From contig OX485809.1 in assembly GCA_950295325.1 (NCBI GenBank), forward strand, positions 17,608,001 through 17,672,000: a stretch of DNA of 64,000 nt. Direction: 5' to 3'. The DNA is from Polytrichum commune (taxonomy: Eukaryota; Streptophyta; Polytrichopsida; Polytrichales; Polytrichaceae). The stretch's first letter is position 1; each line of letters begins with the position of its first letter. The notes beneath the pieces were generated by a model. The model searched no databases. It worked only from the letters and a program-made list of their open reading frames with translations, and was not told the origin of the DNA. Positions 8,972 through 50,913 of the stretch are shown piece after piece. The translations under genes were made by a program, and so were the position numbers.

Positions 8972-9497
8972 GATCGTCATCCTAATCCACCACTCCTTAA
9001 CAACAACTACATCGATCGGCCTCTGAAAGTCTAACTATTACAGAGGGCAGAACGAAATTAGATGAGATTTAACTCGAACCTGGCAAACATACTCTAGACT
9101 CCATCATCCTAATCGAACTCTCCTCACGACGACGAGACGATCGATCGATCTCTGAAAGTCTAACTCTATATCGCATGAGAGGGCGTACCAGTAAGGAGAG
9201 TTAACTCAAACCTAGAAAAAAAACTCGAGACTCGATCCTCCTAATCCACCACTTCTCACAACAACGACAATAACAATAACAATAACAACGACGACGACGA
9301 CAATCGATCAATCTCTGAAACTCTCACTATCACAGAGGCCTTGACAAAAGTCCTCGAGGGTTTAACTTGAACTTGGTAAAAAGACTGTAGACTCGATCAT
9401 CCTAATCCACTACTTCTCGCAACAACGATCGATCTCTGAAAGTCTAACTATCCACAGAGGGTTTAACAAAAGTAGAGGAGACTTAACTCCAATCCCC
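8972..9497. repeat. Tandem array, four units of ~130-160 bp
   Basis: Units start near 8978, 9104, 9237 and 9399 with ATCATCCTAATCCACCACTT-like sequence. They continue through CGATCGATCTCTGAAAGTCT and a CACAGAGGG segment and close with AGACTC. The third unit is longer because of an expanded CAA/CGA trinucleotide run. The window shows no gene in this block. Confidence 0.75.
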
Positions 9498-22639: not shown

Positions 22640-23183
22640 AAGTTAAGGGAGGGAGGGAGGGAGAATGAACGTGGAAAGGGCGACTTCGGAGGGAAAAGGA
22701 CTTGGTGGTAAAGCAAGCAACCACGCAAGCTTATGCGAGCGAGGGGAGTCTGCACTGGAAGACCTTCTCGCGAACCCAACCCAGTCCATCGCCATCGCCA
22801 AACCCTAGCTACTGCGTCCTAGTTTTCGTCAGCGTTCCGACCTTGGGCCCCAAACAAAATTGCCGCCCAATTGTGGGCAAGGTGGGAAGGCCGTCCATGC
22901 GTGGAGGGCAGATCCGCAGGGTGGCCAATTTGTCGGGAATTTTGATCCAGGGTTCGGTTCGGTGTGGTTGGGGGCGTTGTAGGGTTTACAGCGAGGAGGA
23001 GGGCATGCTAGCGATGGTGGAGGAGTCGTGGCGTGGGCGGTGGAAGGTTTGATTTCGCCTTGTGAATTGTGTGCGATTTGTGGCTGTGGTATAGTAGGTG
23101 CCGATTATTAGGGTTTGAAGGAGGAGGGAGGGGGAGGGGGAGGGGGGGGGGGTTGTTTGCCAAGAAAATATTTATCGAAAGGT
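22640..23183 (+). promoter_or_regulatory. PEX22 upstream region and probable 5' UTR
   Basis: GC content rises sharply compared with the surrounding AT-rich sequence, with purine runs (GGGAGGGAGGGAGGG near 22650) and a long G run at 23141-23153 just before the start codon. No TATA box could be placed with confidence. Confidence 0.4.
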
Positions 23184-24083
23184 ATGGGCGATTCGATAGC
23201 TGACGAGCTAGTGCAGCTGTTGAGGGGCATAAGCGCGACCTTAACGGTGAAGCTATCTTACATCCTGGGGTTCATATTTCGCAACAAGAATGCGAGCTCA
23301 GTAGGAGCCGCGGCAGGGTTAGCCATTGCGCTGCTGTGGACCTGGAAATGTTGGCGTGGTCCAGGGAAAAGGCCAAACCCTAGGCTGGACAAGAGAGACG
23401 GTGCAGCACCATCACCATCGTCAGCACCATCCACATCCACATCATCTTCGCAGCAGCAGCAGCAAACCTCAGCTGCCGCCATGGACCCATCCACAGCCAC
23501 ATCCACAGCCGTAGCGAGATCTATCACGCAAGCTGGACAGAGGGGAATTTCAACCACCGAAGGTAACAAGACACATGAAACCATCACCGGGGAGCTGACA
23601 ATTGCACAGGTGGTGCGGAGGCAGTTGAATGGAGGCAGGAAGATGACATGTCAGCTGCTGGGAGTGATTTTGGAGGAAAGCACACCGGAGGAGGTTCAAA
23701 AGCATGCATCCGTGAGGCCGGAAGTGGTGGAGGTTTTGTTGGAGATTGCCCGGGCGTGTGATCTTTACTTGGTAGCCAGGGTGTTAGATGATGGGAGCGA
23801 GGCAGCTGTGATGGCTGCTCTTGATGCAGTGGGGTTATTCTCTGATGCTAAGCTGAATCGTGAGAAGGTTTTGTTCTGTAGTACAGAGGCGGGGCGGTCG
23901 AGTTTTGTGCGGCAGCTTGAGCCTGATTGGCATGTGGATACTTTGAGAGATATCAATGCTGGGTTGGCTCCATTTGTTCGTCAGCAGCTTCATGTTTCGC
24001 CGCCGGGAGCGTCACCGATTGCCTCGAATGTCTTTATAGTGGAGTCCCTAGACCAATACTTCTCGGGTGCTTTTTGTAGTTAG
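23184..24083 (+). CDS. PEX22: Peroxisome biogenesis protein 22 (PEX22), single exon
   Basis: Peroxisomal membrane anchor and activator of the ubiquitin-conjugating enzyme PEX4, needed for recycling the matrix-protein receptor PEX5. The 299-aa frame starts at the ATG at 23184 (MGDSIADELVQLLRG). The open frame extends 69 nt upstream but only from TTG through a G-run encoding polyglycine, so that extension is rejected. Order of parts: short amphipathic N-terminus, one membrane segment at about residues 39-54 (SVGAAAGLAIALLWTW), a Ser/Thr/Gln-rich linker (about 70-115), then the conserved C-terminal domain (about 140-299). The domain includes GELTIAQVVRRQLNGGRKMT, DLYLVARVLDD and, near the end, NVFIVESLDQYFSG. 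The family assignment rests on this architecture and the C-terminal motifs. The gene is intronless here and converges with the minus-strand HAD gene. Confidence 0.88.
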   Translation: MGDSIADELVQLLRGISATLTVKLSYILGFIFRNKNASSVGAAAGLAIALLWTWKCWRGPGKRPNPRLDKRDGAAPSPSSAPSTSTSSSQQQQQTSAAAMDPSTATSTAVARSITQAGQRGISTTEGNKTHETITGELTIAQVVRRQLNGGRKMTCQLLGVILEESTPEEVQKHASVRPEVVEVLLEIARACDLYLVARVLDDGSEAAVMAALDAVGLFSDAKLNREKVLFCSTEAGRSSFVRQLEPDWHVDTLRDINAGLAPFVRQQLHVSPPGASPIASNVFIVESLDQYFSGAFCS

Positions 24084-25314
24084 GGTTCTCTATCTCCTTT
24101 AGAATGAAGGCGAGTGGGTGACGAAAGTGGATGACGATCATTTGGAGGGTGATGATGTGTTTATAGCGGGTTTGGTTGGGATCACGGATTTGTGGGTATC
24201 TCCTCTGCAGTTAGAATTTTTATAGGGTAGTAGGATTCCAAAGGGATGACACGACATAACAGGAACTGGGCATTTCTCGATGATCTGTGATGTGGAGACT
24301 TTCTCGAGAAGTAGTTCCCAAAGTAGGTTATCAGATGTAATATTATGCGCAACTTAAATTGAGTAGTTGCATTTGTGACAACAAACTCCCTTTTTAAAGA
24401 GGCCAGGAGTGTCATCGGCCTCTGGTCAAAGTCTTAGTCTGTGACTCACAAGGCATTGTTTGTCCGTTCGTCTGTTCTGTTTCGTGACGTGTTTTTGCAT
24501 GTCTGGGAGTCGGCAAGAGGAATTGGACACAAACGTCATTAAATGTTGGTAGCACCAAACCCTTTTCACCTTTGTTGCGCTCGACTTGCACAAGGTAATT
24601 GTAACTTGCACAGAATTCATTTGAAGGACTGGGCTGTGGTGAATGCAGTGGGAAAAAATGCACCTTTGTGTGTCTTCTTGTGTTGCAAATGAATTCTTGT
24701 CGCAGTATCAGATTACTCACCCTTCCTCAGGCCCATCAGTATTAAATAAGCCCACATACTGACAATCTTTTGGACATGGGAACACCACATTTCAAATTTT
24801 GTCCAGAGTGAGTTGTGTGTGTTCCATGAACAAAACTTCCATTAAGTGGATTGAAGTTTAGGACATGGGCTACAATGGAAATGGCATGGCATCTTTGTCT
24901 GTTTTGGTTGGTTGTAGACCAATATACTATTAGATTCTAAACCTCACATGGAAACGACATCCCCAGCCACCTCTGTCTTGGCTGCATCACCTCAAGCAGT
25001 ATTGCTTGGAAGCAGTAAAATGCGGCACTTTTGTGGTCAGTGTTCATGTTCTGTTTCCTATGCGGAGGTCAACAGTCAAGTGATTTGAACTTAGACAGTT
25101 GACTGGAAGTTTTTTGTTATATCTAGTTCATCTTCTCTCATGAATGTGCATTAGAATCAGCTGCAAAGGTTGCTTGCAGGATAAGAGGACTTTATCAGAA
25201 TAAGAGGAAGTGCATATACAATGACTCCAAGCACCTGGTATGGCAGGTTGCTGTTTGTATGATATGTTGTTGTTTGGAAATGCAATGATGGAAAGGACTG
25301 AGAGCTCAGCTTCT
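24084..25314. other. Intergenic between convergent PEX22 and HAD genes
   Basis: Should contain both 3' UTRs. No clear AATAAA could be assigned to either gene. No repeat end, RNA gene or further coding region was recognised. Confidence 0.45.
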
Positions 25315-28300
25315 TCAAGAGGGCACAGGAACTGTGAGAGCTGCTGTGTTGTTGTTGGTGGCTGTTGGCTCCGGTTGTTGTGTTTTGGAGCAGGATTGAG
25401 TGCATGGTGCTTCTCCTAAGGCAGCCCACAATGCAGGGTCATGGTAGTCCTTGATGAGAACTGAAGCACCTGCTTCTTTCAAGACTGGACCTGGGTGTCC
25501 TGTGAGTAACCCAACTACTGGTGCTCCAGCTGCCACACCAGCCTTTGTGCCCGATGGGGAATCCTGCACAGACTTGCTGGTATGTTATTTCTGATTCATT
25601 CTCTCATCAACATGTCTGCAAATGAGGTCAGGGACACACTTCACGAACCGTAATGGGGGGAATCACTTGTTTCTTGACCTTTTGAGGAACCCAAGTGACA
25701 GATTTGGATGCTACCGAAGTGGATATTTGGAAACCTGTTTGTATCTTTCAATAATACATGTGCTGTTAGTTTGCCATGTGTATGAATGAGAGTGTCAGGG
25801 GCACACTTCACCAGCGGTAATGAGAGGAAAATCACTTGTTTCTCAACACGGGATCCCTTTGAGAATGGATGTGGATGTAGTGATGCAGGGAATCTGTTGT
25901 GAGGTACATTCTGGTCCTCCTAGATTTCTGGTCCCCAGTGACAGATTTGGATGCTACTGAAGTGGATAATTGCAACCCTATTTGTAACTTGTAATATCTA
26001 CCTGTGTTGTTAGTTTGCTATTTTGTTGAATGAGGATGTCAGGGACACACTTCACAAGCCGTTATGAGGGAAAATTGCTCAGTTCTCGATAGGGGAACCC
26101 TTTTTGAGAACCCAATGTAGGGATGCAGTCATGCAGGGACCTGTTTTGGGTTACTCTGGTCCTCCTAGGTTGGATAATATCCCCCAATTACAGATATGGA
26201 TGCAACTGAAGTGGATAATTGCAACCCTGTTGTGATTACAAGCCTATGTGGATGTGGTGATGCAGGGAACCTGATGTGATCTGGTCCTCCCAGGTGGAAG
26301 GCCCCTGGGAAGTGGATCGTGACTACCCTGTTTGTAATTTCCGATCTCTACATGTGTTGTTAGCTTGTTATGGTAAGAAGTCGAATTAGTACCTCGAGTA
26401 CAAAGCACTGTTTAGGTTCCACCCCAAAGAAATTGATTGCCTCCAAATATGGATCTGGAAAGGGCTTGGGACGTTTGCATTCATTCCCCACCACCAGAAG
26501 CTCAAAGAAATCAGTCATTTTTAGAGCAGTCAACACTTGCTCTGCATTCAACCGCGGAGAGTTTGTCACTGCTGCACGTCGAAGACCTCTCTTCTTCACG
26601 TACTCTGCAAACTGGTGAAACCCAGGGATGGGTTGAAGATCCTTGGCTGCCATCCTGTTTGATTCATCCCAGTAATCACTTAAATGGACTTCTCTGGTCT
26701 GCTGTGGATATTTCTTGCAGACCTACTATTCTGATTGCAAGCAATAATGGAAAGAAGAAACCTAGTGCCCCAGATGAAGGTTGCCAGAGACCATAGGTTG
26801 TAGTAGTGAGGAAAAACAAGAAAACGAATCTATCATAGCAATATTCTATTCTCTGATGACCACTTTCTCAAAATGAAGCAATGTGACTTTCATATGTTAC
26901 TACTTTTTATTTTTAGGCTACTTTGGCATCTGACAACTATGAAGCTTGGATCACTTTATTTTTTGTTGTTTTGAGTGTTTCCTCTTCAGAAAGTAATTGG
27001 TCCAAGGTGAAGTGAGTTCCTACATATATGCTGTGCACAATACATGGTATGTAGGGATTATGGTGCCCATTCTATTGATGCACACGAGTTTGTAAATGAC
27101 AACTTACTGCCTGTAGCGGACTTCTTTTTCGTCCATCATTTCGATCCGCTTCTCCTCTGGTACATCAGGTAGAAGTTCTTGTGCAATAACATAATTCAGT
27201 TTACCACTCATCTGGCGAATGAAAAATTCATGGGTAATTGGCACTCCCCCATTATAGCCTGCCTGCACCCACACCTCTGCACCCGTCGTATCATAATTCC
27301 ACCTTTAATACGCAAAAAGCAAACCTGCTACTTTGAACTGGAAGAGGAATTTTGAGGAACAAGAGTTCATTATTTGCAATTGTGTTGTGGATTTTATTAA
27401 GCTATGTTGTCATTCACTACTATGAATGTATATACATAATGTTTTAGTTCTTTTCAGACTGTATCTCCAGGAGCCCCAGTGCAACGATAATTCAATTTGT
27501 GAACCATGGCTGACTTGTGTGTACTGAATCATTTGTGTTCAACACAAGTTTTATGGGAAAGGAATTTTTTTTATGAGCCTCTAAATTATCAAATGCTTGT
27601 AGTCAGCCACGGGCTATGGTAAGTGTAGCAAGACTGCCAGTTGTATGAGTGGGTTACCATACCTCAACAAGAATCTCTTGGAATGCAAGAAAGTGGATAG
27701 GATCAGAGTCAGCAATAGTGCCATCAATATCAAACAGCACAGCCTTCAAGTTATCACCCTGTGGCAGTGGTTTATCACCAGTTTTTTGTTCTGCAAACCA
27801 AGTGTCTCATATTTATTAGCATTCTTCATCATCAGCCAAGGCCCAAAAAATCATGTCTGGAAAAGAAGAAAATCCCATTTTCACAGCACTCCTATTTGAC
27901 TCCTTTATAGTGGATGAGCAAAGAGAGAGCAAAGAGAGAGATGACGCCAACCATAGGTTAGTGTGAATGAGAGAGACTCATCCTTGACCATACATGCAAA
28001 CCCATATGTAAACATGAGGGCCCGGTTCCTGGAGCATGGCTATGGGACATGGACTATTGTCTCTTGTTGGAAGTGGTGTTTTTTGAAAACAAGAAGGCAA
28101 AGGACTGGGCGAGGTTGGGTGCTCATGTGTCTGCTGTTCGTTGATGGTTTTGGTTTCTACTAGTGTGTTTACCTTGTAGTTGGATGTCTAGTGAATGGCC
28201 TATGCATAATGACCATGCTAATGCTTCAACTCATGGTGTCAGTGGCTACTGTCTCATGTCGGGTGTAGTCCTTTTTGGTAACATGAAGGTGAGGGATTGG

Positions 28301-31049
28301 GCTAGGCTAGGCCATTTGGTGTTAGATATTCGTTGATGGTTTTGGTTTAACACTGGTGCGTTTAACTTAAAAGTTGGGTGTTTATTGGAAGACCCATACA
28401 TATTGACAATGCTAATGTTTTAGCTAATGATGTCAGTTTTATGGCATTTGACATGTGCTATGATGCTGTGTGGAGGAGTAAAAAGATTAAATGCATGTTA
28501 TTACCTGCTGGAGTCTTTGGAGATTGTGACTGAGGTGATTCTCCTGGGGATGTTTGAGCGTGCCAAACCATAATAGACGATCCATTAGCATTTCCCTTCG
28601 AATGATTTTCTTTCTTATCACATTGAGCATTGTTGGTGTCCTCCCCTTTGCAGTTGGTTGTAGGATCTTTGCAAGTAGCTTTGTCCTTGCACTCGCTTGC
28701 AGAAGGCATAGACGCACCACCGTCCGTGAAGTCAGAGCCGGTTTTCAATTTACAAGTAGCACTTGCTTTATCATTGCACTCCCCTGTGGTTGTGGGTGGT
28801 GGGCACTCACTATTTGTGCAATCGACAACTTTTGGTTTGTTGCAGACACCTGCTCTCGGGGGGTCAGTTGGGAGGCATTAAATAAAATTATGTGGAACAA
28901 AGTAGAGTGTCTCATATAATCTTTAAACTTATCAAAAGTAAATAGGGTCCAAAATCCATCCAAAGAATATATGTAGAATATCATGTGGATATTCATCAAT
29001 TTTGTGAAATCTTTCAAGGTTATGTGTTACTTATAGACCCCTCGAAATATCCATTTTCCGCATGTGATATGAACAAGAGACATAGAGTGCACCCTTCATG
29101 TACCTGCTTTGTCCTTGCACTCCCCAACGGCAATGGGTGGCGGGCACTCACCATTTGTGCAATCGACGATTTTTGAAGTGTTGCAAGTGCCTGTTGGGGG
29201 AGGGGGTCACTTAGAAGGTAGTAAGAAAACCACATGAATTTTTTTAGAATCCCATATAATCTTTATCTCTATTCTTAAAAATATTAGATTCAATGTATAA
29301 GGTCCAAGATATTCATTAAAATTTTCTCTTGAATATCAATAATTATCTAGAACCTTTCAAGAATATGAATACATCTAGAAACACCCATTTGCTACTGCCA
29401 TGGCATTAACAACATACATAGCATAGTGCACCCATTATGTACCTGCTTTGTCTTTGCACTCGCCCATGGTGGCGGGCGGTGGGCACTCACCATTTGTGCA
29501 GTCGATGGCTTTCAATTTATTGCAAGCACCTGCTCTCATGTGGGTCATCCCAAACTTGGTATCAAAAAATTCACATGGAACAAAATCAAAGGACCCATAT
29601 AATCTTTGAACTTGAAAAATCATTCAAAAAAATCAGTATTGAATAGAGTCAAGAAATTCATTCAAAAAATATTTGTAGAACCTCCTATCACTAAGAGAAG
29701 TCACCAATTTCCAAAAGCTTCCAAAAATACATGCACCACCTATTAAGCCCTTTGTGGAAATACCCATTTGTTGCACATGGTATGAACAAAATACATAGAC
29801 CTAGCAACCCCCCCCCCCCTTGTGATAATATCCATTTTTTGCATGTGGTGTGAACAAGAGACATAGAGTGCACCCTTCATGTACCTGCTTTGTCCTTGCA
29901 CTCCCCAGCGGCAGCGGGTGGTGGGCACTCACCATTTGTGCAATCGACGATTTTTGAAGTATTGCAAGTGCCTGTTTTGGGTTGGGGGGGGTCACTTAGG
30001 AGGTAGTAAAAACCCACATGATTTTTTAGGATCCCATATAATCTTTCTCTCTATTCTTAAAAATATTAGATTCAATCAATGGGGTCCAAGATATTCATTA
30101 AAATTTTCTTTAGAATATCAATAGTTTTCTAGAACCTTCCGAGAATATGAATACACCTAAAAACACCCATTTGCTGCTGCCATGACATGAACAACATACA
30201 TAGCATAGTGCACCCATTATGTACCTGCTTTATCCTTGCACTCGCCCATGGTGGCGGGCGGTGGGCACTCACCATTTGTGCAGTCGATGGCTTTCAATTT
30301 ATTGCAAGCACCTGCTCTCACGTGGGTCATCTCAAACTTGGTATCAAAAAAATCACATGGAACAAAATCAAAAGACCCATATAATCTTTGAACTTGAAAA
30401 ATCATTCAAAAAAATCAGTATTGAATAGAGTCAAGAAATTCATTCAAAAAATATTTGTAGAACCTCCTATCACTAAGAGAAGTCATCAATTTCCATAAGC
30501 TTCCAAAAATACATGCACCACCCATTAAGCCCTTTGTGGAATTACCCATTTGCCGCACGTGGTATGAACAAAATACACAGACCTAGCGCACCAACCCCTC
30601 TAGAGGAAGAGGGGTTCCCGCCTAGAAGCAAACTCTCCAAATTTATGACCATCCATTTCTTCAGTAATCTTCAAACCAACATATCTCTTTCCTTTATGAT
30701 TTGTGCGCAAACGACCAACAAATCGAAGCAAAATACAAGATCTACGTGACCAAATTCTCCATCTGATTGTTTTTTTGGCTTGAACAAGCAAGCATCCACG
30801 AAACAGACTCCCACCTGCTTTATCCTTGCAATCCCCTGTGGAAGCTTCGCCGGGTTTGGGGCACGCCCCATCAGTGCAGTCGGCGGGTTTAGAAGTCCTG
30901 CCACACTTCTCCTTCTTGCATTCGCACGTCGATTTGCAACTGCAAGCCTCGGGATTGCAGGGACATTGGCCGGGAGCACCACATGCTGTGCTGCAAGCGA
31001 GTGCAATCGCCTCCATTTTCTCTTTCCCCTCGCCACTCGGACTCGACAT
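25315..31049 (-). CDS. Cys-rich metallothionein-like modules fused to Sgpp-like HAD phosphatase, ten exons
   Basis: Exons in transcript order: 31049-30815, 30311-30225, 29971-29885, 29529-29443, 29190-29104, 28849-28505, 27790-27663, 27262-27108, 26654-26393, 25563-25315. All borders are GT-AG, phases match and the total is 1,722 nt (573 aa). Residues 1-78 are metallothionein-like, with 12 Cys including CPC, CSC and CEC. Four 29-aa modules follow, then a sixth exon with nine more Cys. Each module has the form CN-(6 aa)-DCTNGECPPP-(3 aa)-GECKDKA. From about residue 310 the protein is a full HAD hydrolase most like plant Sgpp: nucleophile motif FDIDGTIADSDP (D330, D332), motif II AAVTNSP (T434), motif III KRPKPFPDPY (K467) and motif IV ED at 491-492. 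The HAD half should hydrolyse a phosphorylated small molecule. The Cys-rich half probably binds metal, by inference only. No targeting signal is evident. An alternative start at M12 is possible. The join between halves is an ordinary intron in matching phase, so the fusion needs transcript proof. Confidence 0.82.
25628..26345. repeat. Intronic tandem repeat, three to four diverged units
   Basis: Fills the last intron of the HAD gene. Units begin GTCAGGGACACACTTCAC near 25628, 25795 and 26037 and include CAGATTTGGATGCTAC, GAAGTGGATAATTGCAACCC and CTGGTCCTCCTAG. Unit length varies between about 165 and 240 bp. Confidence 0.75.
28020..28450. repeat. Intronic direct duplication, unit ~200 bp
   Basis: Within intron 6 of the HAD gene. 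CGTTGATGGTTTTGGTTT occurs near 28138 and again near 28331, each preceded by a TGGGC-AGG segment and followed by GTGTGTTTACCTT or GTGCGTTTAACTT. No coding function. Confidence 0.6.
29100..30595 (-). repeat. Tandem duplication of a two-exon block, unit ~781 bp
   Basis: Exon 5 (29104) to exon 3 (29885) are offset by 781 bp; exon 4 (29443) to exon 2 (30225) by 782 bp. Introns are copied too: CATAGCATAGTGCACCCATT precedes both exon 4 and exon 2 on the plus strand, and AAGCCCTTTGTGGAA occurs at about 29741 and 30521. Exons 2 and 4 encode the same 29 residues. Identity is high, so the duplication is fairly recent. Confidence 0.88.
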
Positions 31050-31130
31050 TTGTCTCCCACAAAGTTCCGAATTAATTACAATCTCCTCCTCCTCCTCCTC
31101 CTCCTCCGTGATCTCAGATCATTGAAGGCA
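31050..31130 (-). promoter_or_regulatory. Probable 5' UTR of the HAD fusion gene
   Basis: Minus-strand leader just upstream of the start codon, with a (GAG)n trinucleotide run (TCC repeats on the plus strand, about 31083-31108). The transcription start was not located. Confidence 0.45.
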
Positions 31131-31224
31131 GCAGCCGCATTCTCTCTAAAGCACTGCACAATCATGACATCCCACATCCGACTTCTCAAGCTCAATATCA
31201 CAAAGTTTCAATCACATATTAAGG

Positions 31225-31640
31225 TGGGTGTGCCTATTGATTCACTGTCTATTCCTATATGGACACCTTTATTGGAGTGGTCATGTGTGGCTGGGTGTGC
31301 CTGTTGATTCAATGTCTGATCCCAAATGGACACGTTTGTTGGAGTGGTCATGTGTGGTTGGGTGTGAGTCTAGGATCGGACACAAAAAGGCATCACGTGT
31401 TGGAAGGAGATTGGGCTACGTGCTCAACATATGTTGACCATTCTCGACGCAATTGTCGACATGGTTGGGTGTGGGGGGGCCTATACGATCCATGAACAAC
31501 TCCGAGAATCTTAACTTTGACAATGAATACGTTAGCCATACGAGCTTCAAGAATTATGAGGAAAGTGGCTGCGGGCACGGTTTGAATTCCTTCCTCATTG
31601 ATCTCAGTGATTGCGTGCTTTGTATCCTACAAGAAGTGAG
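31225..31640 (+). repeat. Dispersed repeat family S, copy upstream of the HAD gene
   Basis: Contains GAGATTGGGCTACGTGCTCA, ATATGTTGACCATTCTCGAC, a G run, CTTTGACAATGAATACG and AGCTTCAAGAATTATGAGGA. The first part also has an internal ~65-bp duplication (GGAGTGGTCATGTGTGGCTG / GGAGTGGTCATGTGTGGTTG). Confidence 0.6.
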
Positions 31641-31669
31641 TGCAGAGAGAAAGGTGTCCGTTGAAGCCC

Positions 31670-32060
31670 CGCTTACCTTAGGTCATCACGATGCATGTTT
31701 TGCAGACGACTCTTCTTATTTTCTGCACACTCTTGACAAGTCACTCTGTGCAGAGTGGAATTCTGCTGTCAGTTGGACACTGTAATTTCAACAAAGGGCA
31801 AACCCCAGTGGCGAGTGTGCACTCTCTGTGATGCATAGTTATGTTGATGATTGCCATGCGTTTATTTTCAAGCTCATCACAAAATTTTGATCACATGGGA
31901 CACAACAATACATATTTTACAGACTCTTCTGTGTGCGAGCTTTTGACAAGTCACTCTCTGTGCAGAGTGCGATTTCGCTGTCAATTTGACACTGATTTTT
32001 CAGCAGGGGCAAACCACAGTGGTGGGTGTGCACAGTTATGTTAATGATTTTCATGTGTTT
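31670..32060 (+). repeat. Direct duplication, unit ~210 bp
   Basis: Two diverged units, each with a GACTCTTCT segment, TTGACAAGTCACTCT-TGTGCAGAGTG, GGGCAAACC-CAGTGG and GTTATGTT-ATGAT. No protein recognised. Confidence 0.6.
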
Positions 32061-49620: not shown

Positions 49621-49830
49621 TGTTACGTGATCACTTGAAGATAGACACAAGATGTTTCGGGTTCAATTCCACATATGAAATTTGGAATGACAATCTTCAC
49701 GGTTCATCAGGAGTACGTGTTGATCAAATGAAGCGAGTTCCGGCCCGATCCAATGGCCAAACTTGCATGTGAAGTTGAAAGTGCCCACAATAGAGCCGCG
49801 CAACCATAGCCATCGCTTCTTCTTATCACC

Positions 49831-50500
49831 ATGTCCATGGCACGCGACTACAACGAAGACAACCCGGGGCCGGGCGCATACCATGCGAACTACAAGTTCA
49901 CACGGGAGCGTGCCCCGAAGCACACGTTCGGCTTGAACACCGCGATATGGTTCGACTACGACAAGCCCGGGCCGGGGACCTACAACGTCCGCAAGGATGC
50001 GAACTCGGCCCCCAAGTACACGATGGCCGACCGGTTCAAGCGGCCGGCCGGGCTCAACGTGCCGGGCCCGGGCACGTACACGGCCGACTACAAGCACACG
50101 GTGTGGAAAGCGCCCTCGTTCACGATGCAAGGGCCGACCATGTATAACCCCGACCGGGGGGTCCCGGGGCCCGGGACGTACGATTTGCGGGACCCGGTTC
50201 CGGTGCCGGGCGTCACGATAGGTCAAAAGCTATTCTTCAAGACCGACGAAGGCGTCGGGCCGGGAACTTATAGCCCAACGGCGCCCTCGGGCGCCCCCTC
50301 GTACACGATCGCGCAACGGTTGGTTCAAACCCCATTTAAGACACCCGGCCCGGGCACGTACAAAGCGAGGTCGGCGGAGTTCGATGGGCCCATGTACTCG
50401 ATGGGTCGCCGGTTTTATCGGCTCCGGGACCGGAAGAAGGAGCGGCGTTACACGGCGATCTTGCAACATAGGCCCCAACATCGCCCGAGTACCCCCCAAG
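49831..50500 (+). CDS. SHIPPO/STPG-repeat protein (ODF3-like), first exon, 3' partial
   Basis: The exon encodes 223 residues plus one base. It carries repeated sperm-tail PG-rich motifs: NPGPGAY, KPGPGTY, VPGPGTY twice, GVGPGTY and TPGPGTY, spaced about 35-40 residues with aromatic S/Y-T-M/I spacers (KYTMADRF, SFTMQG, SYTIAQRL, MYSMGRRF). These proteins occur in outer dense fibres or axonemes and in other microtubule-linked structures. In plants they track lineages with flagellated sperm. The start MSMARDY follows AT-rich upstream DNA, and GC content jumps inside the exon. The frame continues past 50500, but its tail runs straight into a MITE terminus (residues GNYAQKNCR derive from it). The strong donor CAAG followed by GTGAGT at 50501 is therefore taken as the exon end, phase 1. 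The 3' exon(s) were not identified. Confidence 0.83.
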
Positions 50501-50581
50501 GTGAGTCACGTCGAGTGTCATCGGTGATTGGTGCATTCCCTTTTTTCTTATGTATGGTTTGGTTGATCATATTAAGCATTA

Positions 50582-50913
50582 TTTTAGTAGGAAACTATGC
50601 CCAAAAAAACTGCCGGTGAAATCGGCGGCAATTCTTTTGACCAACCTAATTTGTAGTCATTAACAACTACATGTTTTTCTTTTTCCATTTTGGGACTGCA
50701 ATTTTAGAAATTTCAGAGCGGTATTATACCATTGGAAAGGCATTTTCAAGGCCTTTCCAATTGTGTATTAGATGCCTCCAAATTCCTTAGGTTTTAGTCG
50801 CTAAACCAAAAAAACGGATTTGTATCTGTTTGGTGACTCGGACGAGGCTGGTCGAAAGAACCGCAGCCAATTTCGGTTGCGTTTCTTTTTGTCATAGTTT
50901 TTTCCTACCAGTG
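50582..50913. mobile_element. CACTA-type MITE family K, copy 2
   Basis: About 330 bp: left TTTTAGTAGGAAACTATGCC, right inverse CACTGGTAGGAAAAAACTAT. Inner blocks GGAAAGGCATTTTCAAGGCC and the mirrored CCGCAGCC are as in copy 1. Flanking 3-mers do not match. Lies in the presumed intron after the SHIPPO exon. Confidence 0.75.

Follow-up and report, generated by a model that had tools for sequence, protein, structure and literature searches.

A predicted Polytrichum commune gene that probably joins a cysteine-rich repeat half to an Sgpp-type HAD phosphatase

A 64,000-nucleotide stretch of the Polytrichum commune genome (GenBank assembly GCA_950295325.1, contig OX485809.1, positions 17,608,001 to 17,672,000), referred to here as the window, contains a locus that raises the question of whether a cysteine-rich, repeat-bearing sequence and a phosphatase of the HAD type are coded as one protein or by two neighbouring genes, and what the cysteine-rich half would contribute if the two are joined. 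The ten-exon model proposed in the initial annotation was reproduced on the minus strand in all of its exons and phases; it runs from 31049 down to 25315 with GT-AG introns and compatible phases, and yields the expected product of 573 aa, starting from the first in-frame ATG past an upstream stop in the frame listing (31049). Exon 1 (30815..31049, 235 nt) carries the start codon, a metallothionein-like cluster CPCNPEACSCKSTCECKKEKC and, at its end, a sixth, diverged 29-aa unit; the five full copies of the 29-aa module are coded by exons 2 to 5 and by the start of exon 6. Exons 2 (30225..30311), 3 (29885..29971), 4 (29443..29529) and 5 (29104..29190) are each 87 nt long and in phase 1 on both sides, so that each adds one 29-aa unit while leaving the frame undisturbed. 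Exon 6 (28505..28849, 345 nt) continues from the last module into degenerate cysteine units and a Ser/Pro/Lys-rich linker, holds no stop codon, and closes on a phase-1 donor (CAG/gtaata). The disputed junction follows in the form of intron 6 (27791..28504), whose 714 nt lie inside the 252-829 nt spanned by the nine introns, and whose borders, with exon 6 ending at 28505 and exon 7 starting at 27790, agree with those given earlier. A 67-bp tandem repeat of 2.1 copies (31225-31366) lies slightly upstream of exon 1.

The phosphatase half is coded by the remaining four exons, also on the minus strand. Exon 7 (27663..27790) codes for a linker, EQKTGDKPLPQGDN, and for HAD motif I, FDIDGT, which starts at residue 329; exon 8 (27108..27262) supplies the cap domain with its GYNGG loop (354) and motif 5, MSGKL (370), its acceptor at 27262 having been picked by homology after an acceptor at 27302 was ruled out for breaking the frame. 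Motifs II (VTN, 433) and III (KPFPDPY, 467) lie in exon 9 (26393..26654), and motif IV (EDSPSG, 491) and the stop codon in exon 10 (25315..25563), which also codes 33 residues past the part that aligns with paralogue A, described below. The four core motifs, together with a Pfam HAD_2 match at E 5.9e-29, confirm that the HAD hydrolase is complete, as first proposed; among its relatives of solved structure, by sequence, are TM_1254 (3kbb), which ranked first of 59, beta-phosphoglucomutase-like enzymes and yeast glycerol-3-phosphatase 1 (2qlt). The further assignment to an Sgpp-like type is favoured by a GYNGG loop ahead of a motif 5 of the G-K type; the YNG of this loop may align with F53-N54-N55 of AtSgpp. 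In the accessible text of PMC6956230, AtSgpp (AT2G38740), a broad-range phosphosugar phosphatase of HAD subclass I with a C1 cap, shares the HAD core motifs, carries motif 5 as IAGKH and has a loop longer by three residues (F53, N54, N55), whereas AtGpp carries MMGRK. GYNGG and MSGKL point to an enzyme that is probably of the Sgpp type.

The same genome holds two further copies of this phosphatase. When the 407.8-Mb assembly was searched with the HAD half, 12 matches were obtained, four of which are exons of the window gene, four belong to paralogue A and three to a copy B, while the remaining one is a more distant HAD on C6 (27% identity). Paralogue A (C3:24174387-24176650, plus strand) is intact, with four coding exons and 229 aa from its own ATG; its gap-free alignment with the HAD half of the window gene covers 226 aa at 59% identity, the three internal splice positions are the same, and its ATG stands five bases after an AG, at the place of the window exon 7 acceptor. 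Paralogue A reads as a stand-alone gene from its sequence, with the proviso that its ATG is preceded by 20 in-frame codons free of stops, which would leave room for an upstream coding exon. Between this paralogue and the window copy, dN is 0.33 and dS 1.85 over the HAD half by LWL85, on which the dS value rests since NG86 yielded none, and the HAD half is evidently under constraint. Copy B (C3, about 24193901-24198077), some 17 kb past paralogue A, is a degenerate Sgpp copy that retains exons 7 and 8; the nucleophile Asp of its DxD motif is gone (TVDGT), a stop lies inside its exon 10 match, and a weak partial match to exon 9 (E 0.043, 37% over the last 35 residues) is perhaps a remnant. It has the phase-1 acceptor of the window copy and an in-frame linker, LPQGDN, in which the linker of the window copy is partly retained, without an ATG. 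In exon identity to the window copy, copy B (18/26 and 26/52) is close to paralogue A (17/26 and 27/52), and the exons alone are therefore no proof that copy B is the nearer relative.

Across the five full modules of the cysteine-rich half, four cysteines are constant while other positions vary. Exons 2 and 4 differ at two of 87 bases, both synonymous, and exons 3 and 5 at five of 87 (two synonymous and two non-synonymous codons); since introns 2 and 4 are also 92% alike, a block of two modules appears to have been duplicated recently, exon 4 being a near copy of exon 2 and exon 5 of exon 3. In all ten module pairs dN is lower than dS (NG86), a comparison that is short, draws on pairs that share exons and hence are not independent, and may include a contribution from gene conversion; once the recent pairs 2-4 and 3-5 are set aside, dN is 0.14-0.19 and dS 0.54-0.96 by the same method. 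Selective constraint on the modules is apparent from these values.

The composition of the N-terminal half is unusual. The first 310 residues hold 37 cysteines, precisely the approximate count made earlier, along with 37 Lys, no Tyr, one Phe, one Trp and two His, and they are rich in Lys, Ala, Pro, Gly and Thr. The description of these cysteines as CxC clusters applies to exon 1, where three CxC pairs (residues 29/31, 36/38 and 42/44) account for six of the 37, and does not extend to the other 31, which are more widely spaced; neither CC nor CxxC occurs anywhere in this half, and the modules are without any of the three motifs. Metallothioneins are described by CC, CxC and CxxC motifs in the accessible part of PMC8070800. 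The term metallothionein-like accordingly fits residues of about 19-49, and is not borne out for the modules or by any match to a metallothionein family. A cysteine-dense criterion (at least seven Cys and three CxC within 21 residues) gave eight matches in the six-frame translation of the window, one being exon 1 and seven overlapping in one other stretch on the minus strand (low ends 9240-9258), and one match in 50 kb of C3; by cysteine density alone, the exon 1 cluster is rare, yet not unheard of. The second translated stretch, CRRRRCYCYCYCRCC (9240-9320, minus strand), is repetitive-looking and probably non-coding.

Relatives of the N-terminal half were sought in several collections. Up to an E of 10, Pfam listed no metallothionein family, most matches above 0.1 being removed by its filters; its matches were a DUF and a sub-threshold Tymovirus peptidase (E 1.2e-4; 22.8 bits, the cut-off being 25), the latter being dismissed as an effect of composition. 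NCBIfam gave nothing at E up to 0.1, the metallothionein profiles of both collections representing known types only, and no PDB chain matched up to an E of 5. A scan of prokaryotic genomes with the first 223 residues produced 14 pattern-matched stretches, none of which was confirmed. Within the genome of P. commune itself, each of the six matches of the whole N-terminal half (E up to 0.01) fell on the studied locus, and the exon 1 piece had six at E up to 10, five at the locus and one on C5; the C5 match (E 0.157) keeps few cysteines, is interrupted by a stop and was taken as chance, so that these searches revealed no further copy beyond the locus. The canonical profiles PF01439 and PF02068 had no match at E up to 1 in this genome, nor any in 14 control genomes, so that the result is no proof of absence. 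Around paralogue A and copy B, tblastn (E up to 1) detected no trace of the N-terminal half in 50 kb of C3, and the 12 stretches returned by a cysteine-density scan of the same 50 kb all appeared unrelated to it by eye.

Whether the two halves belong to one gene turns on the exon 6 to exon 7 junction, where the reading as a single gene made initially is supported as the better one. The phases fit, which by chance would occur in one case of three; exon 6 is free of stops; and no in-frame ATG lies between 27806, the first codon past an upstream stop, and motif I. Since exon 6 lacks a stop and no in-frame ATG precedes the DxD motif, neither half would be complete alone, and these incomplete halves, combined with a paralogue A that reads as stand-alone and with dN below dS in all ten module pairs, favour a genuine fusion in which duplicated Sgpp exons were joined to upstream exons at a phase-1 splice site; a single fused product is, in our estimation, probable. 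In a somewhat unlikely alternative, two genes or mixed isoforms are present: the cysteine-rich gene would end within intron 6, the HAD would start from an unrecognised exon, and the two would be joined at most in read-through chimeras. The apparently stand-alone state of paralogue A fits this alternative as well, and so does the exon 6 frame, which meets a stop at 28460-28458, 15 codons into intron 6. The intron further holds a TATAAA (27909), with no other on the minus strand in 24801-31800, and two AATAAA (28386 and 27817); however, when intron 6 was shuffled 2000 times, 42% of the shuffles had at least one TATAAA and 11% at least two AATAAA, and intron 6 has no blastn match at E up to 1 in the 50 kb of C3 with the paralogues, so that no shared promoter is seen. 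Seventeen alternative first exons running from an ATG to a GT were found inside intron 6, with donors that match 3 to 6 of the 9 consensus positions, against 7/9 for the exon 6 donor, which equals those of exons 2-5; this donor scan, which covered intron 6, is a modest argument, because the donors used by the gene range from 5 to 7 of 9 and a donor of 6, such as that of the alternative first exon 28015-27994, matches some of them. Copy B, in which the linker is partly retained, also lacks an ATG, which speaks against two genes, though it may have lost the ATG by decay.

Should the fusion be real, the N-terminal half may still not be a metal domain, and could instead serve as a flexible or redox-active spacer for localisation, oligomerisation or stability, a possibility considered unlikely. 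Modules without CC, CxC or CxxC, the missing match to a metallothionein family and a composition rich in Lys, Ala, Pro, Gly and Thr would suit such a spacer; against it stand the four cysteines present in every full module amid otherwise variable positions, the near absence of aromatic residues, and an exon 1 cluster that resembles metallothioneins in its spacing. It is very improbable that the locus codes a young or decaying product with no function of its own. The degenerate state of copy B on C3 (TVDGT, at most a weak remnant of exon 9, a stop in the exon 10 match) would be in keeping with decay and the recent two-module duplication with youth, but all ten exons of the window gene are open, its motifs are intact, and dN in its HAD half lies well under dS (LWL85).

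The explanation preferred as a whole, to which we give a chance just short of even, is a fusion in which a thiol-rich metal buffer is tethered to a phosphosugar phosphatase; it builds on the layout and phases of the exons, the intact catalytic motifs, the paralogue without the added half, and the constraint on the HAD half and on the modules. An Sgpp-type HAD phosphatase gene would have been duplicated, and one copy would have gained the N-terminal half when upstream exons were spliced onto the phase-1 acceptor adjoining the old start codon; this half would have been assembled from one metallothionein-like CxC cluster and repeated 29-aa modules with four cysteines each. The product of a single transcript would be one protein, assumed to be cytosolic as no signal peptide is evident by eye. 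From its composition and the exon 1 cluster, we infer that the thiol-rich half may bind soft metals (Zn, Cu or Cd) and act as a tethered buffer, while the C-terminal half would dephosphorylate small phosphosugars with Mg. For comparison, AtSgpp was assayed in 5 mM MgCl2 and preferred ribose-5-P, 2-deoxyglucose-6-P and mannose-6-P, according to the accessible text of PMC6956230, and the accessible text of PMC3607736, in which the terms zinc, copper, cysteine and inhibit do not occur, offers no support for an inhibition of AtSgpp by metals. Regulation of the phosphatase by the thiol half would be a further step beyond metal binding, whereby competing metals might be kept off the Mg site, or activity might be lowered when the thiols are loaded or oxidised. 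Distinctly doubtful is the more far-reaching idea of a metal-gated phosphosugar phosphatase conserved in bryophytes, in which a new repeated thiol domain would sense metal or redox state and control the enzyme in cis.

Several known systems come close to the predicted protein. AtSgpp was cloned as a coding fragment of 735 bp (loop mutant, in the accessible text of PMC6956230), which leaves no room for a cysteine-rich half, whereas the window protein carries 310 extra residues in front and 33 past the aligned part; paralogue A differs in the same manner, with 229 aa from its own ATG and no cysteine-rich half in 50 kb of C3. The N-terminal half resembles plant and moss metallothioneins in its high cysteine content, its few aromatic residues and the three CxC of exon 1, and differs in being a 310-residue part of a 573-aa model rather than a small separate protein; four metallothionein-like genes have been reported from Physcomitrella patens (Pakdee 2019, via PMC8070800 and PMC10049163), and the accessible texts of these two papers attach no phosphatase to them. 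MtlD (7oct), a bifunctional mannitol-1-phosphate dehydrogenase/phosphatase, also combines a HAD with a second domain in one chain, although that domain is, to judge by the name, a dehydrogenase, and its HAD match is at the front (residues 9-190 of 727). Among the literature matches listed, nothing relevant was found on a metallothionein-phosphatase fusion, most subscription papers being outside that scope, or on metal effects on HAD phosphatases. The view that no protein of this layout has been described therefore holds for these literature matches, Pfam, NCBIfam, the PDB and the prokaryotic genomes, and the case is one of a known enzyme with an undescribed cysteine-rich repeat domain, not found being different from unique. 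An expressed fusion would link metal or thiol chemistry with the turnover of sugar phosphates within a single polypeptide, and would provide a clear case of fusion by the splicing of duplicated exons onto an acceptor beside an old start codon; paralogue A, which lacks the added half in the same genome, offers a ready control for the role of the N-terminal half.

A scan of the window detected neither tRNAs nor Rfam matches that reached the gathering score. Of the stop-to-stop frames in the window, 20 are 130 aa or longer, and ten of these were compared with Pfam. Together with the Sgpp type of the phosphatase, two plus-strand open frames suggest a plant with swimming sperm, probably a bryophyte: one at 23112-24083, convergent with the studied gene, carries a PEX22 HAD-like domain (E 1.5e-32), and another at 49810-50619 carries SHIPPO sperm-tail repeats (E 1.1e-20), which fit motile sperm.
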